This document shows, piece by piece, positions 7,379 through 36,605 of a stretch of DNA of 42,020 bases. Within the stretch, counting starts at the first letter, position 1, and each line of letters opens with the position of its first letter. The stretch is from the IMG/VR virus record IMGVR_UViG_3300005613_003622, positions 1-42,020 of that record; one strand, written 5' to 3'. Below the pieces are notes generated by a model that worked only from the letters and a program-made list of their open reading frames with translations, ran no database searches and was not told where the DNA came from. The position numbers were made by a program, and so were the translations under genes. This DNA comes from a virus.

Positions 7379-8716
7379 CTATTTCAATTCCTCTATATTA
7401 TTATACACTTTCCAAAATGCATCAATTATATATTGAATTTGCAAATCATCTAATGGTAAACTATGATACATATTAGTAAAAAGAGTATTTTTCCATAAAT
7501 TTTCAGTTACAGGACATATCCCTTTTCTATATATTCTTTTACTATCTTTCCATGGATAAAATGTTTGGCCATATAATAATGTATGATCAAACAATGGAAA
7601 TAAATACAATGGTTTAATATATCCACATCCTAACATAGGTTTATCGGGTCTTCCTTTTTCTCCTGGTAATTCTGCTGCAACAGCTTTTATGAATAAATCT
7701 CTATGAATTCTAGATTCTTCTTGAATATATCTCATTGTATGGACATAATAACTATGTGTATTATCAGGGGGAATAAAAGTTCCTAAAAGTAATGGAATAC
7801 GTTTTATCCCTTCCCATATTTTTTCAACATTAATTATTCTACGATATATAAAATCTTTTAATTTATCTAATTGATAATATAAAATAGCAGCTTGAATTTC
7901 AGTCATTCTCATGTTAAAACCTAACATATTATTATGAGGACTAAATCCAAAATCTAGATTATATCTATCACTTCCCATATCATTATTTACAGCTTCTGCA
8001 TGATTTCTAATCATCTGACATCTAAGAGCTAATACTTCATTATCTGTAACAATCATTCCACCTTCACCAGCAGTAAGATGTTTCCCTTGTGTAAAAGAAA
8101 AACAACCAATATCTCCTAAAGTACCTGTATATTTATCTTTATATTTTGATCCAATTGCTTGAGCAGCATCTTCAATAATATATAAACCATAATCATTAGC
8201 AATTTCTTTTATTTTATCATAATCAGCAGGTTGTCCAAATAAATCAACTACAATAATTGCTTTTGTTTTTTTTGTTATTTTTTCTTTTATACTATCAGGA
8301 TCTAAGCAATAAGTAACTGGATTAATATCTGCAAATATTGGAATAGCATTCCATAATAGAGGAGCTGTTGCTGAACAAGACATAGACCAAGGAGTTACTA
8401 TCACTTCATCTCCAGGAGCCAAACCTATAGCACCACATGCTATTTGTAATGCACTTGTACAACTATTAACTGAAATAGCTTTTTTAATATTAAAATACTT
8501 TTCCCATTTTCTTTCTAATTTTTGTACCCATTCTCCGCCATAAAATCCAGGTGATTCTTGACTCCAATTACCACGAAAACTGGAAAGATTAACCTCACCT
8601 AATGCTGCTTTTTCCATTAATTGTTTAACTACATCAATTTCTTGCCAATTTATACTTAATTGATGAGGGAATGGATTTGTTGTAACCATTTTCCCGCCAT
8701 TAATTGCTAATTTCAT
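7379..8716 (-). CDS. DegT/DnrJ/EryC1/StrS-family PLP-dependent sugar aminotransferase
   Basis: 445 residues. SCTSALQIACGAIGLAPGDE and VIVTPWSM form the PLP phosphate site; VDLFGQPADYDKI, IIEDAAQAIGSKYK and FSFTQGKHLTAGEGGM follow, with K212 as the Schiff-base lysine. The family transfers an amino group from glutamate or glutamine to a keto-sugar nucleotide, as PseC/LegC do after PseB/LegB. At 445 residues it is longer than PseC (about 380), with an N-terminal extension and an insert more like the AHBA/scyllo-inosose branch, so the exact substrate is open. A good AAAGGAAAG site precedes ATG, with a TATAAT about 50 nt upstream. Confidence 0.88.
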   Translation of the reverse strand: MKLAINGGKMVTTNPFPHQLSINWQEIDVVKQLMEKAALGEVNLSSFRGNWSQESPGFYGGEWVQKLERKWEKYFNIKKAISVNSCTSALQIACGAIGLAPGDEVIVTPWSMSCSATAPLLWNAIPIFADINPVTYCLDPDSIKEKITKKTKAIIVVDLFGQPADYDKIKEIANDYGLYIIEDAAQAIGSKYKDKYTGTLGDIGCFSFTQGKHLTAGEGGMIVTDNEVLALRCQMIRNHAEAVNNDMGSDRYNLDFGFSPHNNMLGFNMRMTEIQAAILYYQLDKLKDFIYRRIINVEKIWEGIKRIPLLLGTFIPPDNTHSYYVHTMRYIQEESRIHRDLFIKAVAAELPGEKGRPDKPMLGCGYIKPLYLFPLFDHTLLYGQTFYPWKDSKRIYRKGICPVTENLWKNTLFTNMYHSLPLDDLQIQYIIDAFWKVYNNIEELK

Positions 8717-8764
8717 TTTTCTTTCCTTTTTATTACACTAGTTTTTGTTGGGTGACATAATGAT

Positions 8765-8784
8765 ATTATAATTTGTCAACAAAT
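8765..8784 (-). promoter_or_regulatory. candidate -10 box with flanking operator-like palindrome
   Basis: On the minus strand ATTTGTTGACAAATTATAAT contains a TATAAT hexamer (8765-8770), about 50 nt before the aminotransferase start, just after ATTTGT-TG-ACAAAT, a 6-bp-arm dyad that could bind a dimeric repressor. No good -35 at 16-18 bp spacing is seen, so this is tentative. Confidence 0.3.
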
Positions 8785-8810
8785 ATATAATATTTCAATT
8801 ATCTTTTTCA

Positions 8811-8915
8811 TTAGTGGGGTATTCCATTATAAATTAAATAAAATGCAAATAAATAAATAATAAAAACTAATATTATCCAAAATTTATCTTTTATTTCTTT
8901 CCATATTTTTTTCAT
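8811..8915 (-). CDS. 34-residue single-pass membrane peptide
   Basis: A short frame starts at ATG 8913-8915 behind AAAGGAAT at good spacing and encodes MKKIWKEIKDKFWIILVFII and YLFAFYLIYNGIPH. A basic N-terminus precedes about 18 hydrophobic residues, giving an N-in membrane topology. It lies in the gap between the aminotransferase and oxidoreductase genes. Function unknown; similar tiny hydrophobic peptides are common in phages. Confidence 0.5.
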   Translation of the reverse strand: MKKIWKEIKDKFWIILVFIIYLFAFYLIYNGIPH

Positions 8916-8937
8916 AATATTCCTTTTTATTTAGTTT

Positions 8938-9044
8938 ATTGGTTATCTTATGCAGATATATAGGTCTTTAACCTATGACCAAAACATTATTACTTTCTAT
9001 ATAAATGCATTTATTTATAATTTTATTTTGTTAAGATAACCAAT
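8938..9044. other. structured intergenic element closed by a perfect 13-bp inverted repeat
   Basis: ATTGGTTATCTTA at 8938-8950 is exactly repeated in inverse at 9032-9044. Inside are ATAGGT-CTTTA-ACCTAT, paired arms CAAAA/TTTTG with ATTAT/ATAAT, and a 14-bp palindrome ATAAATGCATTTAT. Together they can fold into a closed multi-branch structure of about 107 nt on either strand. It lies directly downstream of the oxidoreductase stop, so it could be a transcript end, a processing signal or a small RNA. Confidence 0.55.
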
Positions 9045-9049
9045 TTTTT

Positions 9050-10069
9050 TTAAATCCCTAATTTTTTAAATACTTCATGAACATTTATAGCATTTCTATC
9101 AGTACATAATAATTTACTTCCTTTATGAATAAAATCAAATGCATTCTTTGTTAATAATGATAAAGAAGATGTTAAGGATGTCTCTTCTGTATATATAGGT
9201 TCTGTAGACATTGAATCATAATTTCCATATGTTAATTCTGGTCTTGCCAGATAAGACATATATCTTTTTCCATGATCTGTAAATACATGTTTAGATTTCT
9301 TAGCATATATAGTTAAATCAAATATATCATAATCTCTCCCATCTACCGGAACTAGAAATACATGAGGACATTGTTCATATGAAAGATAAGCAGCATAAGT
9401 AGGATCTTCTTTGGAAAAATCACAGAAAGAATTATTTTTATTTAATAATTGACCCCCCAAACATTTCCCAAATAAATAATTAAAAAGATCTATTCCATGA
9501 CTAGCATCTCTTTTAAACCCTCTAGTATAAGTTAAAACAGCATTATATATAGGATCTAAATCTCTATTGAATATTTTTCTTTGTAATTTTTGAATAGTAG
9601 GATCAAATCTCCTAGAATAATCAATCATAATAGGAACATTAATTGATTCAAAATTAATACTAATATTCAAAGCTTCTTCATAATTAGTTGTAAAAGGTTT
9701 CTCTACAATCATTAATTGAGGTTTATATGAATTATTTGTTTTTGTATTTAAAATACATTCATTTAATAATTTATAAATTTCCCATAAAACTTCCTCATGA
9801 TATTTAGTATTAACTGCTATAACTATTATTTCTGGAAAAAAATCTGTAATAGCAAATTTTAAATTTGTACAATAAAATCCATTCCATTTTATAGCAGCTT
9901 GTTTTGCTTTATTAATATTTTTGTCATAAAATATTAATTTATTTGTATTAGAATTGTTATAAAAAGCATGAGCTAAAGTTAAAATATTTTTTCCATTTGG
10001 TCTATCATATTTATCTTCCTTTAACCCACCTATACTTCCACATCCTATTATCAGAATATCATTTGACAT
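9050..10069 (-). CDS. Gfo/Idh/MocA-family NAD(P)-dependent oxidoreductase
   Basis: About 339 residues from the chosen start. The N-terminus DILIIGCGSIGG is the dinucleotide-binding turn; IIVIAVNTKYHEEVLWEIY and MIVEKPFTTNYEEALNI give the conserved EKP motif, and IDYSRRFDPT and GIDLFNYLFGKCLGGQ the substrate domain. Members oxidise or reduce sugars and sugar nucleotides. Start ATG 10067-10069 is preferred because AGGGGGAG lies 6 nt upstream; a longer reading from 10111 has no such site and would overlap the gene upstream. Placement between the aminotransferase and cytidylyltransferase suggests a sugar-nucleotide step; the exact substrate is unknown. Confidence 0.82.
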   Translation of the reverse strand: MSNDILIIGCGSIGGLKEDKYDRPNGKNILTLAHAFYNNSNTNKLIFYDKNINKAKQAAIKWNGFYCTNLKFAITDFFPEIIVIAVNTKYHEEVLWEIYKLLNECILNTKTNNSYKPQLMIVEKPFTTNYEEALNISINFESINVPIMIDYSRRFDPTIQKLQRKIFNRDLDPIYNAVLTYTRGFKRDASHGIDLFNYLFGKCLGGQLLNKNNSFCDFSKEDPTYAAYLSYEQCPHVFLVPVDGRDYDIFDLTIYAKKSKHVFTDHGKRYMSYLARPELTYGNYDSMSTEPIYTEETSLTSSLSLLTKNAFDFIHKGSKLLCTDRNAINVHEVFKKLGI

Positions 10070-11174: not shown

Positions 11175-11951
11175 TTATCCTTCTCCTGCTATTTTAGCTT
11201 TGATATTTGAATTAATTTTTTGTAAATTAGGATTTACTCTTATAAATTGAATAACATCTTTTATAGAAAAATTATTAAAGTTTTTAAATTCTTCAAAAAT
11301 AATTTGTAATAATTCATAATCCTCCTTAGTATCTAGTGTGATTCTCATTTCTGGATAATTAAATATTTTTGGAGCAGGATAATTACCTATTTTATAATCA
11401 TTTGGAAATTGCAAAATATTCCATCCTGTATGTTGTTTATGTTTTTCATTAGTTATTTTATGATAAACACTAGATAAAGCATCCAATGTATATACTTGTA
11501 TATCACATCCATCCGGCCATGTTCTTTTTACTATATTTGAATAATAATCTAAATTATTATCAACTAATTTTTCTATAAATAAATCTATGTAATAAGAATC
11601 AACTAAAGGACAATCTGCTGTAATATCTATAATGATATCTGGAAGATTTTTATCTATTTTTATTGTATATGCAGCATTTAATACTCTAAATATTACATCA
11701 TTCATACTTCCTTGAAAAATAAGAGCATAATCTTTCCATATTCGCTGTCTCCAATTCATAATAATATCTTTATTTTGTAGTGTCTTTGGAATAGCAATGA
11801 CTGTTTTATCTACATATTTTGAATTAGAAATTCTTTCAATTATCCATTGAAGTACAGGTTTTCCAGCTAAATCTAATAAAACTTTTCCAGGTAATCTAGT
11901 ACTTTCCATACGAGCTTGAACAATTACCAAAATACGTTTCTTTTTATACAT
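11175..11951 (-). CDS. SpsF/acylneuraminate-type cytidylyltransferase
   Basis: 258 residues. The N-terminus IVQARMESTRLPGKVLLDLA and GKPVLQWIIERI is the nucleotidyltransferase signature of the SpsF/CMP-sugar synthase group; DIIIDITADCPLVDSYYID carries the metal-binding acidic residues, and MRITLDTKEDYELLQIIFEE the C-terminal block. The family activates sugars, including nonulosonates, with CTP. With the NeuB-type synthase it would complete a route to an activated nine-carbon sugar. AAGGAAAT precedes ATG. It is the first gene after the inverted repeat at 11971-12140. Confidence 0.85.
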   Translation of the reverse strand: MYKKKRILVIVQARMESTRLPGKVLLDLAGKPVLQWIIERISNSKYVDKTVIAIPKTLQNKDIIMNWRQRIWKDYALIFQGSMNDVIFRVLNAAYTIKIDKNLPDIIIDITADCPLVDSYYIDLFIEKLVDNNLDYYSNIVKRTWPDGCDIQVYTLDALSSVYHKITNEKHKQHTGWNILQFPNDYKIGNYPAPKIFNYPEMRITLDTKEDYELLQIIFEEFKNFNNFSIKDVIQFIRVNPNLQKINSNIKAKIAGEG

Positions 11952-20368: not shown

Positions 20369-20779
20369 TTAATATATATTATTTTTATTATCTTCTAATA
20401 TTTGAAAAAATCTATTAGCATCTATAACTACTACAGGATTTTTAAATTCTTTTCTTTTTAAAACTAACAACCAATCAGTATTTTCTTTTGTATTTTTTTT
20501 AGCTTGTCTTATAAAACTAGGTAAACTCCAAGCTTCACATGATTTACATTCTACTGAATATGGAAATCTTTTTAAAGCTTCTTGATGCAAAACTACATCA
20601 GTTCCTGATTGTCCCATCAGTCTAGGTTGAATTAATTTTTCATCTTCATAACCATATTCAATATTTAATAGTTCTGATATTTTTTTACAAACCCATTTTT
20701 GTAAATTTCTTCCTTTGTCTTTTGCAGAAGCAATTGTTATTCGTTTTTTCTTTGGTTTTTTCTTAATTTCTTTTTTCAT
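20369..20779 (-). CDS. PD-(D/E)XK-like nuclease, possible Holliday-junction resolvase type
   Basis: About 136 residues from ATG 20777-20779 (AAGGGG upstream; a longer reading from 20815 overlaps the split gene and is less likely). Basic N-terminus (KKKPKKKRITIASAK), then GRNLQKWVCKKISELL, SGTDVVLHQEALKRFPYSVE and CKSCEAW. The pattern GTD ... VECKS is the PD-(D/E)XK metal and lysine signature. WLLVLKRKEFKNPVVVIDAN follows, as in small phage nucleases of this group. Its position near the recombination module suits a junction-processing or DNA-repair role (inference). Confidence 0.65.
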   Translation of the reverse strand: MKKEIKKKPKKKRITIASAKDKGRNLQKWVCKKISELLNIEYGYEDEKLIQPRLMGQSGTDVVLHQEALKRFPYSVECKSCEAWSLPSFIRQAKKNTKENTDWLLVLKRKEFKNPVVVIDANRFFQILEDNKNNIY

Positions 20780-20781
20780 TT

Positions 20782-20882
20782 CTACCCCTTTATATGTCCA
20801 TTTTCTTCTGCCCAATCTTCCAACTCAATTTGACTATATACTTCATCTACTGTAAAATTATTTTTAACATAATCTTGTATAA
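20782..20882 (-). pseudogene. 3' part of a repeat gene interrupted by an integron-type cassette
   Basis: This segment encodes VIQDYVKNNFTVDEVY followed by SQIELEDWAEENGHIKG and a TAG stop at 20782-20784, with no usable start. It is the missing end of the gene that begins at 21760: deleting 20883-21600 joins AATG to TTATACAAGATT in frame and gives a continuous protein of 86 residues with three tandem repeats. It overlaps the nuclease gene leader. Confidence 0.85.
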
Positions 20883-20974
20883 CACCATGATCAGTGGTCG
20901 GAACGATGTATTAAGTAATCAATATCTTAACTACAATAAGTTGAGTTTCGATCCACTGCATTTATTAGTTATGT
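20877..20974 (-). repeat. attC-type recombination site (98 bp)
   Basis: Minus strand: R'' box ACATAAC (20968-20974), L''-type arm CAGTGGATCGAAAC, a long loop, L' arm GTTCCGACCACTG, then R' box GTTATAC (20877-20883). The arms pair as CAGTGG-TCGRAAC with one extrahelical A, the asymmetric bulge that integron integrases use for strand choice. Size is within the range of known attC sites. Cross-over is expected between G20883 and T20882. Confidence 0.8.
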
Positions 20975-21600
20975 GAAGTATTTGTTATTTTAATTCTTTT
21001 TTGTATAAATCTTTAATAAAATTAAATACCTTTGGATCATAATCATCGTTTGTAATTTTCTCTATATCTTTTTCTATAGGTTCAAATATGTTTAATAATA
21101 TTTTTGCTCTGTTCTTTGGAATAAGTAATTTTACTTCTTCTAGTGAAATGAGACGAGAATCAGAATTTTGTTGTACATTTTGATAGTGTTCTATAATATC
21201 ACGTCTATCATTATGCAATTGCCGAAGTTCTGGATAATTTGTTGGATCATTATATTGTCTTACATATTCTCCTTCTTCTGGAAATTTCTTTTTCCAGTCA
21301 CATACTTTTGTAATTTTTTTTATTATTTTTTTATTTGCAAATTCTTTTTCTATTTCTTTATATTCTTTGCTTCTTTCTTTCCTATTCCAATCTAAAATAA
21401 CAAGAATTATTAAGAAAATAGCCACAAAATTAAGAGTAAGTTTTAATCCATTAGGGACACTTATACATAGCATATCTTGTAAAATTTGTATGTTTGATAT
21501 GAATATTAATGGGGCAATTGCTATTAAAAAATACATTTGTCTCCTTTTTGATAAATTCAATATTTCTATTGGGTTAAATTCCATTTCTTTTCTCACATAA
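20883..21600 (-). mobile_element. 718-bp integron-type gene cassette inserted in a phage gene
   Basis: Bounded by G^TTATGT at 21601/21600 and G^TTATAC at 20883/20882. It holds one gene (20985-21596) starting a few bases inside the left edge, followed by an attC-like site at its 3' end: the standard cassette layout. Excision restores an open reading frame across the junction. In the circular form the site would have R'' ACATAAC and R' GTTATGT, which are perfectly complementary, as expected for a genuine cassette, while the inserted form shows the target's TTATAC instead. No integrase gene is present in the window. Confidence 0.85.
20985..21596 (-). CDS. cassette-borne membrane protein of unknown function
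   Basis: Up to 203 residues from GTG 21594-21596, or 199 from ATG 21582-21584. Two membrane segments: MYFLIAIAPLIFISNIQIL (about 22-40) and LTLNFVAIFLIILVILD (about 53-69), then a charged cytoplasmic tail of 130 residues, largely helical (ERSKEYKEIEKEFANKKIIK, LHNDRRDIIEHYQNVQQNSD). Not recognised. It begins 4-5 nt inside the cassette boundary and ends 10 nt before the attC R'' box, so it is the cassette's only cargo. Expression presumably depends on read-through from the disrupted host gene. Confidence 0.75.
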   Translation of the reverse strand: MRKEMEFNPIEILNLSKRRQMYFLIAIAPLIFISNIQILQDMLCISVPNGLKLTLNFVAIFLIILVILDWNRKERSKEYKEIEKEFANKKIIKKITKVCDWKKKFPEEGEYVRQYNDPTNYPELRQLHNDRRDIIEHYQNVQQNSDSRLISLEEVKLLIPKNRAKILLNIFEPIEKDIEKITNDDYDPKVFNFIKDLYKKELK

Positions 21601-21760
21601 CATTATCATCATATACATCATCTACTGTAAAATTATTTTTAACATAATCTTGTATATCATCATCATCATATACATCATCTACTGTAAAATTATTTTTAAC
21701 ATAATCTTGTATATCATCATCGTCTATTAAACATAATAAATCATTAGAATCTATTCTCAT
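21593..21760 (-). pseudogene. 5' part of the interrupted tandem-repeat gene
   Basis: From ATG 21758-21760 the frame encodes 55 residues: MRIDSNDLLCLI, two copies of DDDDIQDYVKNNFTVDDVY, then DDNVM and a TGA that lies inside the cassette. The third repeat and the natural end are at 20782-20882. The two intact repeat units are also nearly identical at DNA level (57-bp period), indicating recent duplication. AAGGAAAAATTAAA precedes ATG. The repeats are acidic and helical; function unknown. The truncated protein may still be made. Confidence 0.85.
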
Positions 21761-21784: not shown

Positions 21785-22088
21785 TTACTTTTTACATATT
21801 GATAAAAAACAATCTAATTCAATATCACTTAAATTTCTATAATGATAGTTTTGATTTTCTAAATGATAAGTCATTAATTTATCTTCTCTCCAAAGACGTA
21901 GATATACCCTCATATCTGTTACATCTAATAAATCTATATTATGTGAATTACTTGTAAAACAAGAAAAACTAAGTTTTTTTTCGTTTATTGTCTAAAATCC
22001 CTATATATAAATTATTATCTATACAAACAATACTTAAATTTGTTAAATCTAAATCTTTTCGTTCTATTTTTATTGTATATTTATTCAT
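21785..22088 (-). pseudogene. frameshifted small gene (A8 tract)
   Basis: ATG 22086-22088 opens a frame encoding MNKYTIKIERKDLDLTNLSI ... GILDNKRKKT and stop. Beyond it, another frame continues smoothly as LSFSCFTSNSHNIDLLDVTD ... DIELDCFLSICKK, ending at 21785. Removing one A from the run of eight at 21974-21981 fuses them into one protein of about 100 residues. This is a true frameshift mutation, a sequencing or assembly error in a homopolymer, or slippage-dependent expression. Not recognised. Confidence 0.6.
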
Positions 22089-22109: not shown

Positions 22110-23156
22110 TTAATACTTCTTTTTTCTATTTTTTTGAGAAATTAATTCCTCTACTTCATCCCAATCATTATTAACTCGTTTAATCAGTTCATCTTCTAAA
22201 TCATTTGATTCTATATATTCTATTAACTTATCTCGCATATACTCTTTACCATCCCATTCTAGTTTTCTTTTAGATTTTTCATTCATTTTTCCTGAATCTG
22301 TTTTTAATCTGTATAAATAATCAATATTTGTAGTAATATTATCTACTCCATAAGGATTTTCAAATGTAATATTTATAAAACACTCTCTGAATGGTTTTCC
22401 CACACTATTTTTTGTAATTCTTGCTTTAGTAGTTATTCCTGTTACTTTTTTTAATCCTCTAACTATTTTAGAAATCTTTTCTGCTTCTGCTAACCAAATA
22501 ATTTGAGAAGCAAAGTGATCTAATGCTTTACCACCAGTTCTATAATATTTAGCTCCAAATGTAATTCCTATATTTTGCCTAACTTGTGAAATTATTATTA
22601 ATATAATATTTTTATCTCTTATTATCTTCTTTTTTATTCTAAAAAATTCACCGAATTCAGTAGTTTTTTCTAATTTAAATGATCCATTTTCTGTAATTCC
22701 TTTTTCAGTAGCTTTTAATCGTTTTTCATATCTTTCTTTTGCTGCTCTAGAAGATAAAGAATCAAAAGAATCTAAAATATAAACTAGAGTTTCATCATCT
22801 TTTAAATTATTAACTTTCTTTTGAAAATTTAATTCAAATTCTTCTATTGTATCAGAACTTTTTTCTCTATCATTTTTGGATAAAATATCAAATCCATACA
22901 TTTCCTTAGTATTATAATCAAATCGAGATTCAACATCATCAAAAAACCATTTTAATTTTTTTCCTAACAATTTTTTACATGCTGCTATAAATTCAATAGC
23001 TACAAGTGTTTTTCCAGTACTAGAATCTCCTACTAAGTTAATTATATGCCCTTTTTTAAATCCATTACCTAAAGCATTATCAAATACTGTACATCCAGAA
23101 GATATAATAGGTGCCATTATTATTTCTTTTTTATTTTTTATTTTTTCTCTTGTCAT
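22110..23156 (-). CDS. uvsX: RecA/UvsX-like recombinase
   Basis: 348 residues. Walker A GDSSTGKT (43-50), Walker B LVYILDSFDSL, the glutamine switch region IIISQVRQNIG and the DNA-binding loop YRTGGKALDHFASQIIWL are all present. It polymerises on ssDNA and drives strand exchange. The phage-type short C-terminal extension, neighbouring gp32-like and UvsY-like genes, and the size point to a UvsX-type role. AAGGAAATAT before ATG supports this start. The chain is basic overall, ending RKKKY. Confidence 0.9.
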   Translation of the reverse strand: MTREKIKNKKEIIMAPIISSGCTVFDNALGNGFKKGHIINLVGDSSTGKTLVAIEFIAACKKLLGKKLKWFFDDVESRFDYNTKEMYGFDILSKNDREKSSDTIEEFELNFQKKVNNLKDDETLVYILDSFDSLSSRAAKERYEKRLKATEKGITENGSFKLEKTTEFGEFFRIKKKIIRDKNIILIIISQVRQNIGITFGAKYYRTGGKALDHFASQIIWLAEAEKISKIVRGLKKVTGITTKARITKNSVGKPFRECFINITFENPYGVDNITTNIDYLYRLKTDSGKMNEKSKRKLEWDGKEYMRDKLIEYIESNDLEDELIKRVNNDWDEVEELISQKNRKKKY

Positions 23157-25855: not shown

Positions 25856-28462
25856 TTATCCTTTATATTCTTTCATTTCATACCAATTTCCATTTATCTC
25901 TGATATTTCAATATCTACATTTAAAGGAATATTTATCCATTTCCATTTTTTTCTTATATCTTCACACATAGTTTTCTTTATAATAGGAACAATATATTCT
26001 AATTCATTCGGATCAACATCCATATTCATAGCATCATGAATCTGCCCTATAATTTTACTTTTCCATTTTTCTTTTTTTGCTCTTTTATTCACTTGAATAA
26101 GTGACCATAATAGACAATGAAAAGCAGTTCCCTGAATTTTGTAATTTAAAACTTCATTTTTTTTCATTAATCCAGAACATCTAAATCCTGTAAGAAAATC
26201 AAAATATCCTTTTTCTTGATAATCATTCCATACTTTTTCCTTCCATTTTCCATAAATTTTAAATTTATTATGCCAAAAATCATATTGACATGTTCTTAAA
26301 TAATTTTCGTAGCTATGAAAAGATTTTATTCCATTTTTTTTAAGATGATCTATAAGTAATATATTATCTTTTGTTTTTTTTTGTAATATAATATTCCATA
26401 ATGCTGGGGCACAATCTTTATAATAAGATCCGTAAAATTGAGCAAATACCCATTTATTTTTTGCCTCATATCTTATTTCTTTAGTAATTTGATTTGGTTT
26501 TAATTTAAATAATAGACACGCTTGATCTCTATGCATATCTGTAGTAGAATCATTTAAATATTTAACCATTACAGGATCCTTATGATAACAAGTACTGATA
26601 TGAACTTCTAATCCTGAATAATCTACTTCTAGTAATAAATTACCTTTTCTAGGGATTAACCCTTTTCTTACTATTTTTTGAGCTTCCATATTTCTCTTGG
26701 GAATGTTTTGGAAATTTGGATTTGAGCTACTAGATCTGAAAGTACGAACAGTATTAAGTAAAAATCCTGGATGTATAAAACTATTAGCTGAATTTTTTAA
26801 AAATCCTTTTAAATATGTATTTCTTATTCTATACAATTTTCTATATTGTAAAATGGTATTAGTAAATGGTATATTTATTTGTGATAATGCATTTGCATTT
26901 ACTGATCCGATAGATTCTTCTTCAGCTTCTTCTACATCAAATATCTGATTTTTTTTTATTTTCAAATATCTGTATAATAAATCTTGCATATGAAGATTAG
27001 ATCTCGGATTAAATTTTTTTCGATTATTTTCTTTCCATATATTTTTTATTTCATTATAATTATATATCCTTTTTTCTAATTTTGTTAATCTTTTTTGTAA
27101 ATTATTACTTTGTAATTCATAATATTTTTTATCTATTAGTATACCATCATTCTCTATTTTGCTAAATTCTAATGCACCATTATGTAATAATTTATAACCT
27201 TTATATAAAGAAGTTTTAACAATATATTTTTGTTTTAACCATAATTTATATGTATATTTAGAATCGATACCACAATATAATAAAACTTTATTAAATATAA
27301 ATGAATTATTTTTTATTTCTTCTAATTTATTTTTTCCAAATATACCATCATTTGATTTTAAATATGGAGAAACTTCATTTTCATAACCAAATATACCAAA
27401 TTCTTTATAAATTTGAAATTTTAATCCAGTAATTCCAGGTCTATTATCTATACAATGAGCAGCTAGCATAGTATCCCAATACCATCCACAAATATCACAA
27501 TTAAAAATTGCTCTAGTCCAACTATCTTCATATTTAAAATTATGGGCTATTTTTTTAATATTAGAATTTGTTAGTATAGATTTTAACAAACGCATAAGTA
27601 TTATATTATCTTCAAAAATAGGAAATACTATTGTTTTTACATCCGATTCATTATTTTTACAATAAGCAATAGACATACAAATAATTTTATGTTTATTTAC
27701 GAATGGTATTAAACCAGTAGTTTCATAATCAAAAGCTATAGGAGAATATTTCATTTCTGATATTTCTTTTAAATGAAAAATAACTTCTTTTGGATCTGTA
27801 ATTAAAAGTATATTATCTTTTTCATTATCTATCATAAAAGGTTCATTCCAATTAATAGCTTTTTCTAAATGATTTGAAAATAAATTTGATAATACTTTTT
27901 TTAATGCTGGATTATTTTCATTTCTTTGAATATAAGATGGATGATATGTAGGAAATACCCAACATCCTATCTCTTGATCCGGTATCCTAAATCCTACCCA
28001 TTTTCCCATACTATTTATAGTCATTCTATCTCCTATTAAAGAAGATAAAGCTGTTAATCCTAATGTAATAATTTTTTTAGGCTTATATTTAATTATATTT
28101 TTGAAAATATGGGATGAACAATATTTAATTTCTGTATTTGTTGGTTTTCTATTATGAGGTGGTCTACAAATCACACTATTATCTTTCCAACAATCCCCAT
28201 CTAAATCTATATTTAATTTTTCTAAAGTATTTCTAAGTAATTGACCTGCTTTTCCAATTAATTGAATTCCTCTTTTATCCTCACTTTCTCCAGGAGCTTC
28301 TGCTATAAACATAATTTTTTTCTTACCTTCACCTGAACATGACATTTTTGGAGATATACATTTTTTATATAGTCCACATTTTATACAATTATTACCATCC
28401 CCAATAGATTTTAATTGATTTTTATTCATTTGTTTCGGCCAAAAATATTTATTATTTTTCAT
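25856..28462 (-). CDS. uracil-DNA glycosylase / family A DNA polymerase fusion
   Basis: 868 residues. Residues 1-210 are a family 4/5-type uracil-DNA glycosylase: CIKCGLYKKC, IMFIAEAPGESEDKRGIQLI plus GKAGQLL (54-76), CRPPHNRKPTNTE, LGLTALSSLIG and a TYHPS motif. Then a 3'-5' exonuclease domain (AFDYETTGLIPF; IAHNFKYEDSW; YCGIDSKYTYKLW). The polymerase domain has motif A LLEVDYSGLEVHISTC, motif B in KNKWVFAQFYGSYY, IQGTAFHCLLWSLI and motif C IGQIHDAMN. This is the replicative polymerase. A UDG-Pol A fusion is known from SPO1-like phages. ATGA overlap couples it to the radical SAM gene upstream. Confidence 0.93.
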   Translation of the reverse strand: MKNNKYFWPKQMNKNQLKSIGDGNNCIKCGLYKKCISPKMSCSGEGKKKIMFIAEAPGESEDKRGIQLIGKAGQLLRNTLEKLNIDLDGDCWKDNSVICRPPHNRKPTNTEIKYCSSHIFKNIIKYKPKKIITLGLTALSSLIGDRMTINSMGKWVGFRIPDQEIGCWVFPTYHPSYIQRNENNPALKKVLSNLFSNHLEKAINWNEPFMIDNEKDNILLITDPKEVIFHLKEISEMKYSPIAFDYETTGLIPFVNKHKIICMSIAYCKNNESDVKTIVFPIFEDNIILMRLLKSILTNSNIKKIAHNFKYEDSWTRAIFNCDICGWYWDTMLAAHCIDNRPGITGLKFQIYKEFGIFGYENEVSPYLKSNDGIFGKNKLEEIKNNSFIFNKVLLYCGIDSKYTYKLWLKQKYIVKTSLYKGYKLLHNGALEFSKIENDGILIDKKYYELQSNNLQKRLTKLEKRIYNYNEIKNIWKENNRKKFNPRSNLHMQDLLYRYLKIKKNQIFDVEEAEEESIGSVNANALSQINIPFTNTILQYRKLYRIRNTYLKGFLKNSANSFIHPGFLLNTVRTFRSSSSNPNFQNIPKRNMEAQKIVRKGLIPRKGNLLLEVDYSGLEVHISTCYHKDPVMVKYLNDSTTDMHRDQACLLFKLKPNQITKEIRYEAKNKWVFAQFYGSYYKDCAPALWNIILQKKTKDNILLIDHLKKNGIKSFHSYENYLRTCQYDFWHNKFKIYGKWKEKVWNDYQEKGYFDFLTGFRCSGLMKKNEVLNYKIQGTAFHCLLWSLIQVNKRAKKEKWKSKIIGQIHDAMNMDVDPNELEYIVPIIKKTMCEDIRKKWKWINIPLNVDIEISEINGNWYEMKEYKG

Positions 28463-35436: not shown

Positions 35437-35625
35437 GCCCCTGCAATGGTTTATTTAAATATTAGTTTCACCATTGCTTTAACTGACTGGCCGTCAGAGC
35501 TTTTGTCTCCCAGAGTTACTTATAGATTATTGTCTATAAGACATATCATAAAGAATCGAACTTTACTCCCGTCTCGCCAAACCTCAGCTACCGATGCAGA
35601 ATCGAACTGCCCTTATCTATATGTC
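35437..35625 (-). ncRNA. candidate structured RNA with tandem T-arm-like hairpins
   Basis: A GC-richer, gene-free stretch. On the minus strand GACATAT (35619-35625) pairs with ATATGTC (35540-35546), enclosing 86 nt with two hairpins whose loops are both TTCGATT: GCAG...CTGC (35596-35610) and TAAAG...CTTTA (35549-35565), both like tRNA T arms. Downstream follow CTTATAGA/TCTATAAG, CTGAC/GTCAG (35483-35497) and GCAATGGT/ACCATTGC (35443-35477). No canonical D or anticodon arm can be made, so it is not an ordinary tRNA. A tRNA relic, tRNA mimic or other RNA is possible. Confidence 0.45.
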
Positions 35626-35674
35626 TAGATTAAAGTATAATTAATAACTAGACAAAATTATTTATAATATTAAA

Positions 35675-35721
35675 ATTAAACCACTAGTGCTTTTTCGGTT
35701 GACTTTAATGCCTTGTTAGAT
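35675..35721 (-). repeat. attC-like site, degenerate (array site 4)
   Basis: R''-type ATCTAAC at 35715-35721 followed by AAGGC, as in site 2 (36299-36359), and a GTTTAAT near 35675-35681 that is a poor R' match; an alternative R' is GTTATTA at 35642-35648. The arms pair weakly. It coincides with the end of the 81-residue cassette-like gene, whose last codons run through it. Confidence 0.4.
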
Positions 35722-35921
35722 CGTTGTTTTAAAAATCTTTCTCTGTCAAAACCATCTTTATTTTGTTTTTCAGCTTCTTTAATTTGCAATTCATAAAAAG
35801 TTATATAATCCTTCTCTTCTGTGATTTTAACAGTCAATCTATTAATTTCTATCTTAAGACGTTGCATAAATACTTTTTTGTTTTGAAGGCAATCTTTATG
35901 CCAAGCTATTGATTTTTTCAT
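35676..35921 (-). CDS. cassette-type small helical protein
   Basis: 81 residues: MKKSIAWHKDCLQNKKVFMQ, IEINRLTVKITEEKDYITFY and ELQIKEAEKQNKDGFDRERF, almost wholly helical with a coiled-coil pattern. Its start lies 6 nt after the R' box of the upstream attC-like site and its end overlaps the next one, the placement of an integron cassette gene. It resembles small coiled proteins often found in cassettes, from memory; function unknown. Confidence 0.65.
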   Translation of the reverse strand: MKKSIAWHKDCLQNKKVFMQRLKIEINRLTVKITEEKDYITFYELQIKEAEKQNKDGFDRERFLKQRSNKALKSTEKALVV

Positions 35922-35927
35922 ATAAAT

Positions 35928-35978
35928 ACCTAACTAAAAATTGGTTGAGTTTCGATCTGGTGCATGTGCTTGTTAGAA
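35928..35978 (-). repeat. attC-like site (array site 3)
   Basis: R'' TTCTAAC (35972-35978), AAGCACATGCACCAGATCGA, AACTCAACC, and R' GTTAGGT (35928-35934, matches GTTRRRY). It shares GATCGAAACTCAAC with the site at 20877-20974. The L' arm is short or lost, so it may be decayed. The stop of the 118-residue gene lies in the R' box. Confidence 0.55.
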
Positions 35979-36286
35979 GATTTTATTCTAAAAATATGTC
36001 CTCCATAACCTGAAAAAGTTAACCAATCACTTTCGCTCTTACATATACCACCATATCCAACATCAAAACCACAACTAAAATCTTTACCTTTTATAGAGAA
36101 AAAAGCACTGTCATTGCCGTTTGGTTCAAGAATAATATCAGTTATTATAGTTTTTAAGTTATTATCCATTAATCCTAAATCATGATCCATGCTATCTCCA
36201 AAATCTTCTAAGATCCCACCTATCCAATCTTTTTTCTTTTCTACAAATTGAGACCAGAGAGGATATTTTTTACCATTTACTATCAT
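35930..36286 (-). CDS. cassette-type protein of unknown function
   Basis: 118 residues: MIVNGKKYPLWSQFVEKKKD, WIGGILEDFGDSMDHD, TDIILEPNGNDSAFFSIKGK, FSCGFDVGYGGICKSESDWL and FSGYGGHIFRIK. It starts 13 nt after the R' box of a canonical attC-like site with GGAG just before ATG, and its stop falls in the next R' box. Base composition is richer in G and C than the neighbouring phage genes. The pattern is that of integron cassette hypothetical proteins. Soluble beta-rich fold likely; function unknown. Confidence 0.75.
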   Translation of the reverse strand: MIVNGKKYPLWSQFVEKKKDWIGGILEDFGDSMDHDLGLMDNNLKTIITDIILEPNGNDSAFFSIKGKDFSCGFDVGYGGICKSESDWLTFSGYGGHIFRIKSSNKHMHQIETQPIFS

Positions 36287-36298
36287 ATTATTTTCTCC

Positions 36299-36359
36299 AC
36301 ATAACGCTGCTGGTCACTGGCGGGTGCTTTTCCCGTCCAGTGCAGCAGCCTTGTTAGAT
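36299..36359 (-). repeat. attC site, canonical (array site 2)
   Basis: 61 bp. R'' ATCTAAC (36353-36359), AAGGCTGCTGCACTGGACGG, loop GAAAAGCAC, CCGCCAGTGACCAGCAGC, R' GTTATGT (36299-36305). The arms pair over about 17 bp with one extrahelical A on one side and a two-base bulge, the asymmetric attC signature. It is the most GC-rich patch of the whole window. Confidence 0.85.
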
Positions 36360-36531
36360 AAAAACTAATTGTAACCCATGCAACTAGCCGACTCCCTCAC
36401 AGTTATCATTGCACGCTTATATGGACTGCACCGCTTGACGGAATAACGCCATATTGTCAGCTTATCTTTTTTTACCTAACATATTAAACTCTCTGGTTTT
36501 ATACAAAATATTTTTTCTTATTTTTCTCTAA
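36305..36531 (-). mobile_element. cassette-like unit without a sizeable gene
   Basis: Spans from the GTTAGAG box of site 1 to the GTTATGT box of site 2. R'' of site 2 (ATCTAAC) and the unit's own left end (G+TTAGAG) are complementary at 6 of 7 positions, as expected for one cassette. The longest frames are peptides such as MITVREPSASCMG-like (actual MITVRESASCMGYN) and MALFRQAVQSI. It may be a non-coding or promoter-bearing cassette. Confidence 0.5.
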
Positions 36532-36605
36532 CATCCATAATCAATGGTCAGAACTTATAATTAAGTTTCGATCCACTAAAAAAGCTGATTTCTATATAAT
36601 TTATT
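36526..36605 (-). repeat. attC-like site (array site 1), partly decayed
   Basis: R' GTTAGAG (36526-36532) preceded by GTTCTGACCATTGATTATGG, nearly identical to the L'/spacer half of the site at 20877-20974 (GTTCCGACCACTGATCATGG). The opposite arm AGTGGATCGAAACTT is also shared, with the same single extrahelical A. The R'' box is not recognisable. It lies just after the 134-residue gene. Confidence 0.6.

Follow-up and report, generated by a model that had tools for sequence, protein, structure and literature searches.

Gene cassettes reportedly enter bacterial genomes at attG sites, through the attC × attG reaction that Loot et al. are said to have described in 2024.

The integron integrase IntI1 needs little more than 5'-GNT-3' in its target, extendable to GTTRRRY (PMC10127599). 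In virulent phages, namely TJE1, P12002L and PH101, clusters of attC sites without an integrase (CALINs) have been described, and IntI1 recombined five of the six phage CALIN sites tested (Qi et al., 2023, PMC9892861). For the borders of these clusters the authors offered off-target homologous or illegitimate recombination. Their screen required at least two attCs per cluster, and a lone cassette would be overlooked because of this threshold (PMC9892861). In this regard, the claim of an earlier note on the DNA studied here, that cassettes in phages appear rarely described, has to be divided: phage attC clusters have been published together with experiments, whereas lone cassettes fall outside that screen. 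Here we analyze a window of 42,020 nucleotides, the whole stretch of the viral record IMGVR_UViG_3300005613_003622, in which a small repeat gene is interrupted by 718 bp.

The interrupted repeat gene

The features of the locus are as follows.

20372..20779, minus strand: flanking phage gene, PD-(D/E)XK / RusA-like resolvase, used as query for finding relatives
20782..20882, minus strand: 3' part of the interrupted phage gene, with the remainder of the third repeat unit, SQIELEDWAEENGHIKG and the stop
20877..20974, minus strand: attC site, with R'' ACATAAC (20974-20968), L'' CAGTGGATCG (20958-20949), L' CGACCACTG (20900-20892) and R' GTTATAC (20883-20877)
20883..21600, minus strand: inserted cassette, 718 bp, beginning TTATGTGAG and ending ...CATGGTG; its removal restores the frame and the 57-bp period
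20985..21566, minus strand: cassette ORF, 193 aa, orphan, with two N-terminal hydrophobic stretches, followed by a tail for which helix is predicted with low confidence
21601..21760, minus strand: 5' part of the interrupted phage gene, with two 57-bp units, the start of the third and G at the left junction
22110..23156, minus strand: flanking phage gene, RecA/UvsX-like recombinase

Direct translation of the repeat ORF (21760..21593, minus strand) gives MRIDSNDLLCLIDDDDIQDYVKNNFTVDDVYDDDDIQDYVKNNFTVDDVYDDNVM*, truncated within the third unit. Two 19-residue units are followed by an early stop in the third (...DDNVM*), which arises because the inserted piece begins TTATGTGA, with TGA in frame. 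The missing end, VIQDYVKNNFTVDEVYSQIELEDWAEENGHIKG, is encoded 718 bp downstream at 20882..20782 (minus strand) without a start codon; it comprises what is left of the third unit plus a C-terminal tail. When 20883-21600 is deleted and the flanks are joined at 21601|20882, an open frame of 86 codons results. The ATACAAGATTATG marker carried by the three units is then located at 48, 105 and 162, so that its period is exactly 57 bp. The two repeats with a truncated third in frame from 21760, the start-less end and the in-frame rejoining had all been pointed out in the earlier note, and every coordinate was verified on the minus strand.

The recovery of the repeat period upon excision locates the insertion with no appeal to integrons, the uncertainty being a 6-bp microhomology. 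Since TGTTAT, which contains GTT, is present at both junctions, the crossover could by homology alone lie anywhere in these 6 bp, and the exact G^TT position was adopted from integron biology. The target rebuilt in this way, AAT G^TT ATA CAA, lies within the coding repeat and provides the non-attI site with a GTT core that characterizes attG-type insertion. After the insertion, the phage gene remains as 55 codons, devoid of the third repeat and the C-terminus. A search for relatives of the restored 86-aa protein found none, and no empty-site relative was detected. Upstream of the repeat gene, a small gene at 21785-22088 (minus strand) looks frameshifted at an A run around 21973-21981, either by sequencing error or in reality.

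The 6-bp direct repeat at the ends is also what a transposon-like element inserted with a 6-bp target duplication would leave. Such an element is nevertheless extremely unlikely, considering that no transposase match was obtained for the single ORF in the 718 bp, that the hairpin stands at one end only, and that inverted ends are limited to the 9-bp pair formed by R'' and the start of the piece. The record is metagenomic and the orphan gene lacks support from a second genome, as would be the case for an assembly chimera between an integron contig and a phage contig. Against this reading, which we consider very unlikely, the base composition of the cassette region is that of the phage (~23-25% GC), the two phage flanks come together again in exact period, and the record contains, at a distance of 15 kb, another attC of this family.

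The inserted piece and its attC site

The 718-bp piece contains a single ORF (21566..20985) followed downstream, in the same direction and on the minus strand, by an attC-like hairpin (20974..20877), in agreement with the earlier description of one gene and then an attC-like site and with the organization of an integron gene cassette. Its boundaries are G^TT, and R'' can pair with the start of its own cassette over 9 of 9 bases (TCACATAAC/GTTATGTGA), a match expected by chance in a 110-nt band with p = 0.0013. A direct comparison of R'' with the R' that adjoins it at present (GTTATAC) gives matches at 5 positions out of 7. The proposal that R'' is not fully complementary to the present R' but pairs perfectly with the R' of a closed circle is hence borne out, over a longer stretch (9 bases) than first reported. 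The same behavior is seen in most of 17 reference cassettes, taken from three phage records with attCs of Qi et al. (MK672802, MZ568829 and NC_019930) and from a relative of the phage (L029): in 14 of them R'' complements the start of its own cassette at 7/7 positions, and the adjoining R' matches at 4-7 of 7.

Alternatively, illegitimate or microhomology recombination could have brought in DNA that carried, by chance, an old attC cassette. The TGTTAT at both junctions would suit such an event, and illegitimate recombination at GTTRRRY repeats has been proposed for phage attC clusters (Qi et al., 2023, PMC9892861). It does not predict, however, that both ends fall exactly at cassette boundaries with 9/9 pairing of R'' to the far end, and we regard it as unlikely.

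Bottom-strand folding (pfold with DNA parameters, constrained R+L fold) gives 0.69 for the closed circle versus 0.0076 for the integrated site, and in the circular form the bottom strand shows the paired R and L boxes and the extrahelical base in L'' of an attC. If the R boxes are kept constant, the R and L arms close at any energy in 18% of random inner sequences, and 0.9% reach the same energy, so that the fold alone is not strong evidence for an attC. The arm hairpin by itself is only modestly unusual: 200 random sequences of 42 kb contained five sites like it, all with imperfect R boxes. Its R-to-L box spacers are longer than those of canonical attCs. For the integrated site, the fold gives a weak z-score of -1.4, as might be expected if an ordinary phage gene and its hairpin terminator simply lay beside a repeat split for other reasons, with no mobile cassette involved. 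This last account is hardly credible in view of the exact restoration of the period, the closed-circle match and the absence of the gene from related loci. The strength of the case for a cassette lies in the hairpin combined with the exact rejoining.

In order to evaluate the site by covariance models, we relied on two home-made ones. R1 was built from the arms of 19 attCs; of the 126-129-bp long-loop sites in L010 on which it was trained, it recovers few, and those as matches that are short and weak. As it cannot see long-loop sites, its silence at 20.9 kb was given no weight and R2 was built. The latter uses 13 attCs over their full length, taken from phages (Vibrio and Shewanella) and plasmids (Shewanella and Aeromonas), with no site of this phage among them. 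The earlier note had named the lack of an attC-model hit at 20877-20974 as a ground for its own rejection; R2 matches 20974..20877 with a score of 16.3 bits and an E value of 0.029, moderate under a rough calibration, and the ends of the match are exactly the R-box ends implied by the junctions first proposed. In 186 kb of control loci, with filters off, one match reached 16.3 bits, in sequence without sign of a cassette. Two clear R2 matches are found in the window, the best at 36359..36299 (21.2 bits) and the second at 20974..20877. The speed filters of Infernal make R2 lose the 36.3-kb site, so that filtered negatives were not relied on, and the filter of the hairpin scanner missed the classic attC there as well. 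Rfam searches of the window and of 35.4-36.7 kb returned only a tRNA. No bacterial array with the attC family of the 20.9-kb site was detected, motif scans of viral and genome collections giving only unrelated sequence.

As for the cargo, the 193-aa protein has no relative in phages, plasmids, viral contigs or GTDB genomes, and its AlphaFold model is unusable (mean pLDDT 42). Judging from cassette biology, it may plausibly serve in counter-defence or superinfection exclusion. Given that the cassette is oriented in the direction of phage transcription and sits between recA and the Holliday-junction-resolvase-like gene, it is probably co-transcribed with the neighbouring phage genes.

Further attC sites in the window and in related viruses

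The earlier account of attCs in the window was right about the 20.9-kb site but overlooked a second, partly decayed attC-like cluster at 35675-36577 (minus strand), which includes two short orphan ORFs of 118 and 81 aa.

35675..35721, minus strand: putative attC 5' half, ATCTAACAAGGC..., where the 81-aa ORF ends; 3' half absent
35921..35676, minus strand: ORF, 81 aa, orphan, after the weak 35978..35928 site
35928..35978, minus strand: putative attC-like site, weak or degenerate, TTCTAAC...GTTAGGT, where the 118-aa ORF ends; R1 9.4 bits
36286..35930, minus strand: ORF, 118 aa, orphan, after the classic attC
36299..36359, minus strand: classic 61-bp attC, 56% GC; R1 23.4 bits, E 0.005; R2 21.2 bits; followed by ORF 36286..35930
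36526..36577, minus strand: attC-like site of the same family as the 20.9-kb site, with the exact 13-mer GTGGATCGAAACT and GACCATTGATTATGG; R' GTTAGAG; R'' decayed

Of the sites in the cluster, which has no intI, one is strong (23.4 bits) and the other three are weak or decayed. The strong site, at 36299..36359, stands out by its 56% GC in a 25% GC genome, and the 36577..36526 site has both GTGGATCGAAACT (13/13) and the L' arm GACCAYTGATYATGG in common with the 20.9-kb site. We read the cluster as a decaying cassette array, in which only the 36.3-kb site is statistically firm. Between two of the attC-like sites, some 120 bp of higher GC (36365-36487, minus strand) without an obvious ORF or an Rfam match may represent a non-coding cassette. 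Beside the cluster, 35530-35640 (minus strand) contains tRNA-like pieces (AGTTCGATTC twice) that ARAGORN did not call as a tRNA.

Relatives were found through the flanking resolvase, and the best 80 loci of many were taken. Neither the repeat gene nor the cassette has a convincing counterpart in any of these 80 resolvase-bearing loci; a conserved, non-mobile gene order, which the earlier note had also set against its own reading, was not seen in the related loci fetched. Two near-identical relatives (G018/L029 and G019/L030, 99.6% identity over 8.3 kb) carry textbook attCs, with R1 scores of 29.8, 28.9 and 24.5 bits. In L029, cassettes lie between sbcC and sbcD, bounded by three model matches together with an incomplete fourth site upstream. 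Since sbcC and sbcD are adjacent in L005, L006 and the window, this array is a separate insertion at another place. One of its cargo genes, with an NPPY motif, likely encodes an N6 adenine methyltransferase, its family match being below the Pfam cut-off. In this part of L029 (8167-8800, minus strand, and 8237-9320, plus strand) the cargo ORFs, the likely methyltransferase gene among them, point against the direction of the attCs, an unusual arrangement. R1 had no match in forty more distant relatives nor in any of 33 unrelated viral records.

The separate insertions at 20.9 kb, at 35.7-36.6 kb and between sbcC and sbcD of the relative lead us to raise, tentatively and with some doubt, the idea that this virus group habitually recruits integron cassettes via host integrases as a source of accessory genes. 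If so, phages would constitute a moving reservoir of cassettes outside integrons.

Elsewhere in the window, genes at 100-630, 1395-2213, 7382-8716 and 11175-11951 (minus strand) resemble GNAT, NeuB-type synthase, DegT aminotransferase and cytidylyltransferase genes, and suggest a sialic- or pseudaminic-acid-like sugar pathway on the phage, family matches supporting only the GNAT and the aminotransferase. At 25856-28462 (minus strand), a family A DNA polymerase is fused to an N-terminal uracil-DNA glycosylase-type domain.

Proposed route of cassette entry and comparison with known systems

Neither an integron integrase nor any tyrosine recombinase was detected on the 42-kb record (TIGR02249, PF00589), and 33 relatives have no integron integrase above cut-off; we therefore infer an integrase acting in trans. 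A complete integron (intI plus attI) is absent from the record, which may be a fragment. In two relatives, matches to integrase models lay far below the integron cut-off and were read as generic recombinases. As regards the earlier proposal of integrase-mediated insertion at a non-attI site of a virus, the reading as a cassette is upheld by the scar, the circle match and the attC model, and the action of the integrase is deduced from the scar.

In our opinion, the best explanation, and a highly probable one, is that an integron-type cassette was put into a non-attI GTT site by an integrase in trans, probably the host's. A promoterless cassette would have been circularised elsewhere, either in a host integron or in the phage's own attC cluster at 35.7-36.6 kb, and the attC bottom strand of the circle would then fold. 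An integron integrase, most likely from the bacterial host, would recombine the folded attC with a GTT in the coding strand, the target being an attG-type secondary site, G^TTATAC, in a small phage gene. The single cassette would thereby enter in the direction of phage transcription, cutting the gene to its 55-codon remnant, and the 193-aa orphan gene would end up between recA and the resolvase gene, where co-transcription is possible.

The locus would thus be a natural, base-exact record of the apparent action of an integron integrase on a virus genome at a non-attI site, suggesting that a bacterial gene-collecting enzyme can place cassettes in virus genomes outside its usual docking sites. 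Single cassettes could in this manner leave integrons and travel in phages, a route missed by two-attC screens. The interrupted repeat gene, together with the relatives, makes the insertion event testable.

With respect to known systems, the locus is like the phage CALINs in bearing attC-containing cassettes in a phage genome with no integrase gene, and the cargo of CALINs is often a DNA methyltransferase (PMC9892861), as is probably the case in the relative L029. CALINs have at least two attCs and loosely explained borders (PMC9892861), whereas here a lone cassette lies in a coding gene with a base-exact scar. The Vibrio and Shewanella prophage integrons (MK672802 and MZ568829) have the same arm architecture and an R'' equal to the cassette's own start, but they carry intI and arrays, unlike the lone cassette described here; the Vibrio phage array is a subset of the chromosomal integron of its host. 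As far as it is portrayed in the papers that cite it, the attC × attG insertion of Loot et al. (2024) likewise uses a non-attI site, here reduced to its GTT core, its target being a bacterial genome and ours a virus genome. The arrangement of one attC and one cassette without an integrase is known as well, and in the present case the empty target can also be rebuilt from an internal repeat, which is direct evidence of insertion. What is new is a lone cassette within a coding gene whose target is rebuilt to the base by that repeat, along with indications that one virus group has taken up cassettes repeatedly.
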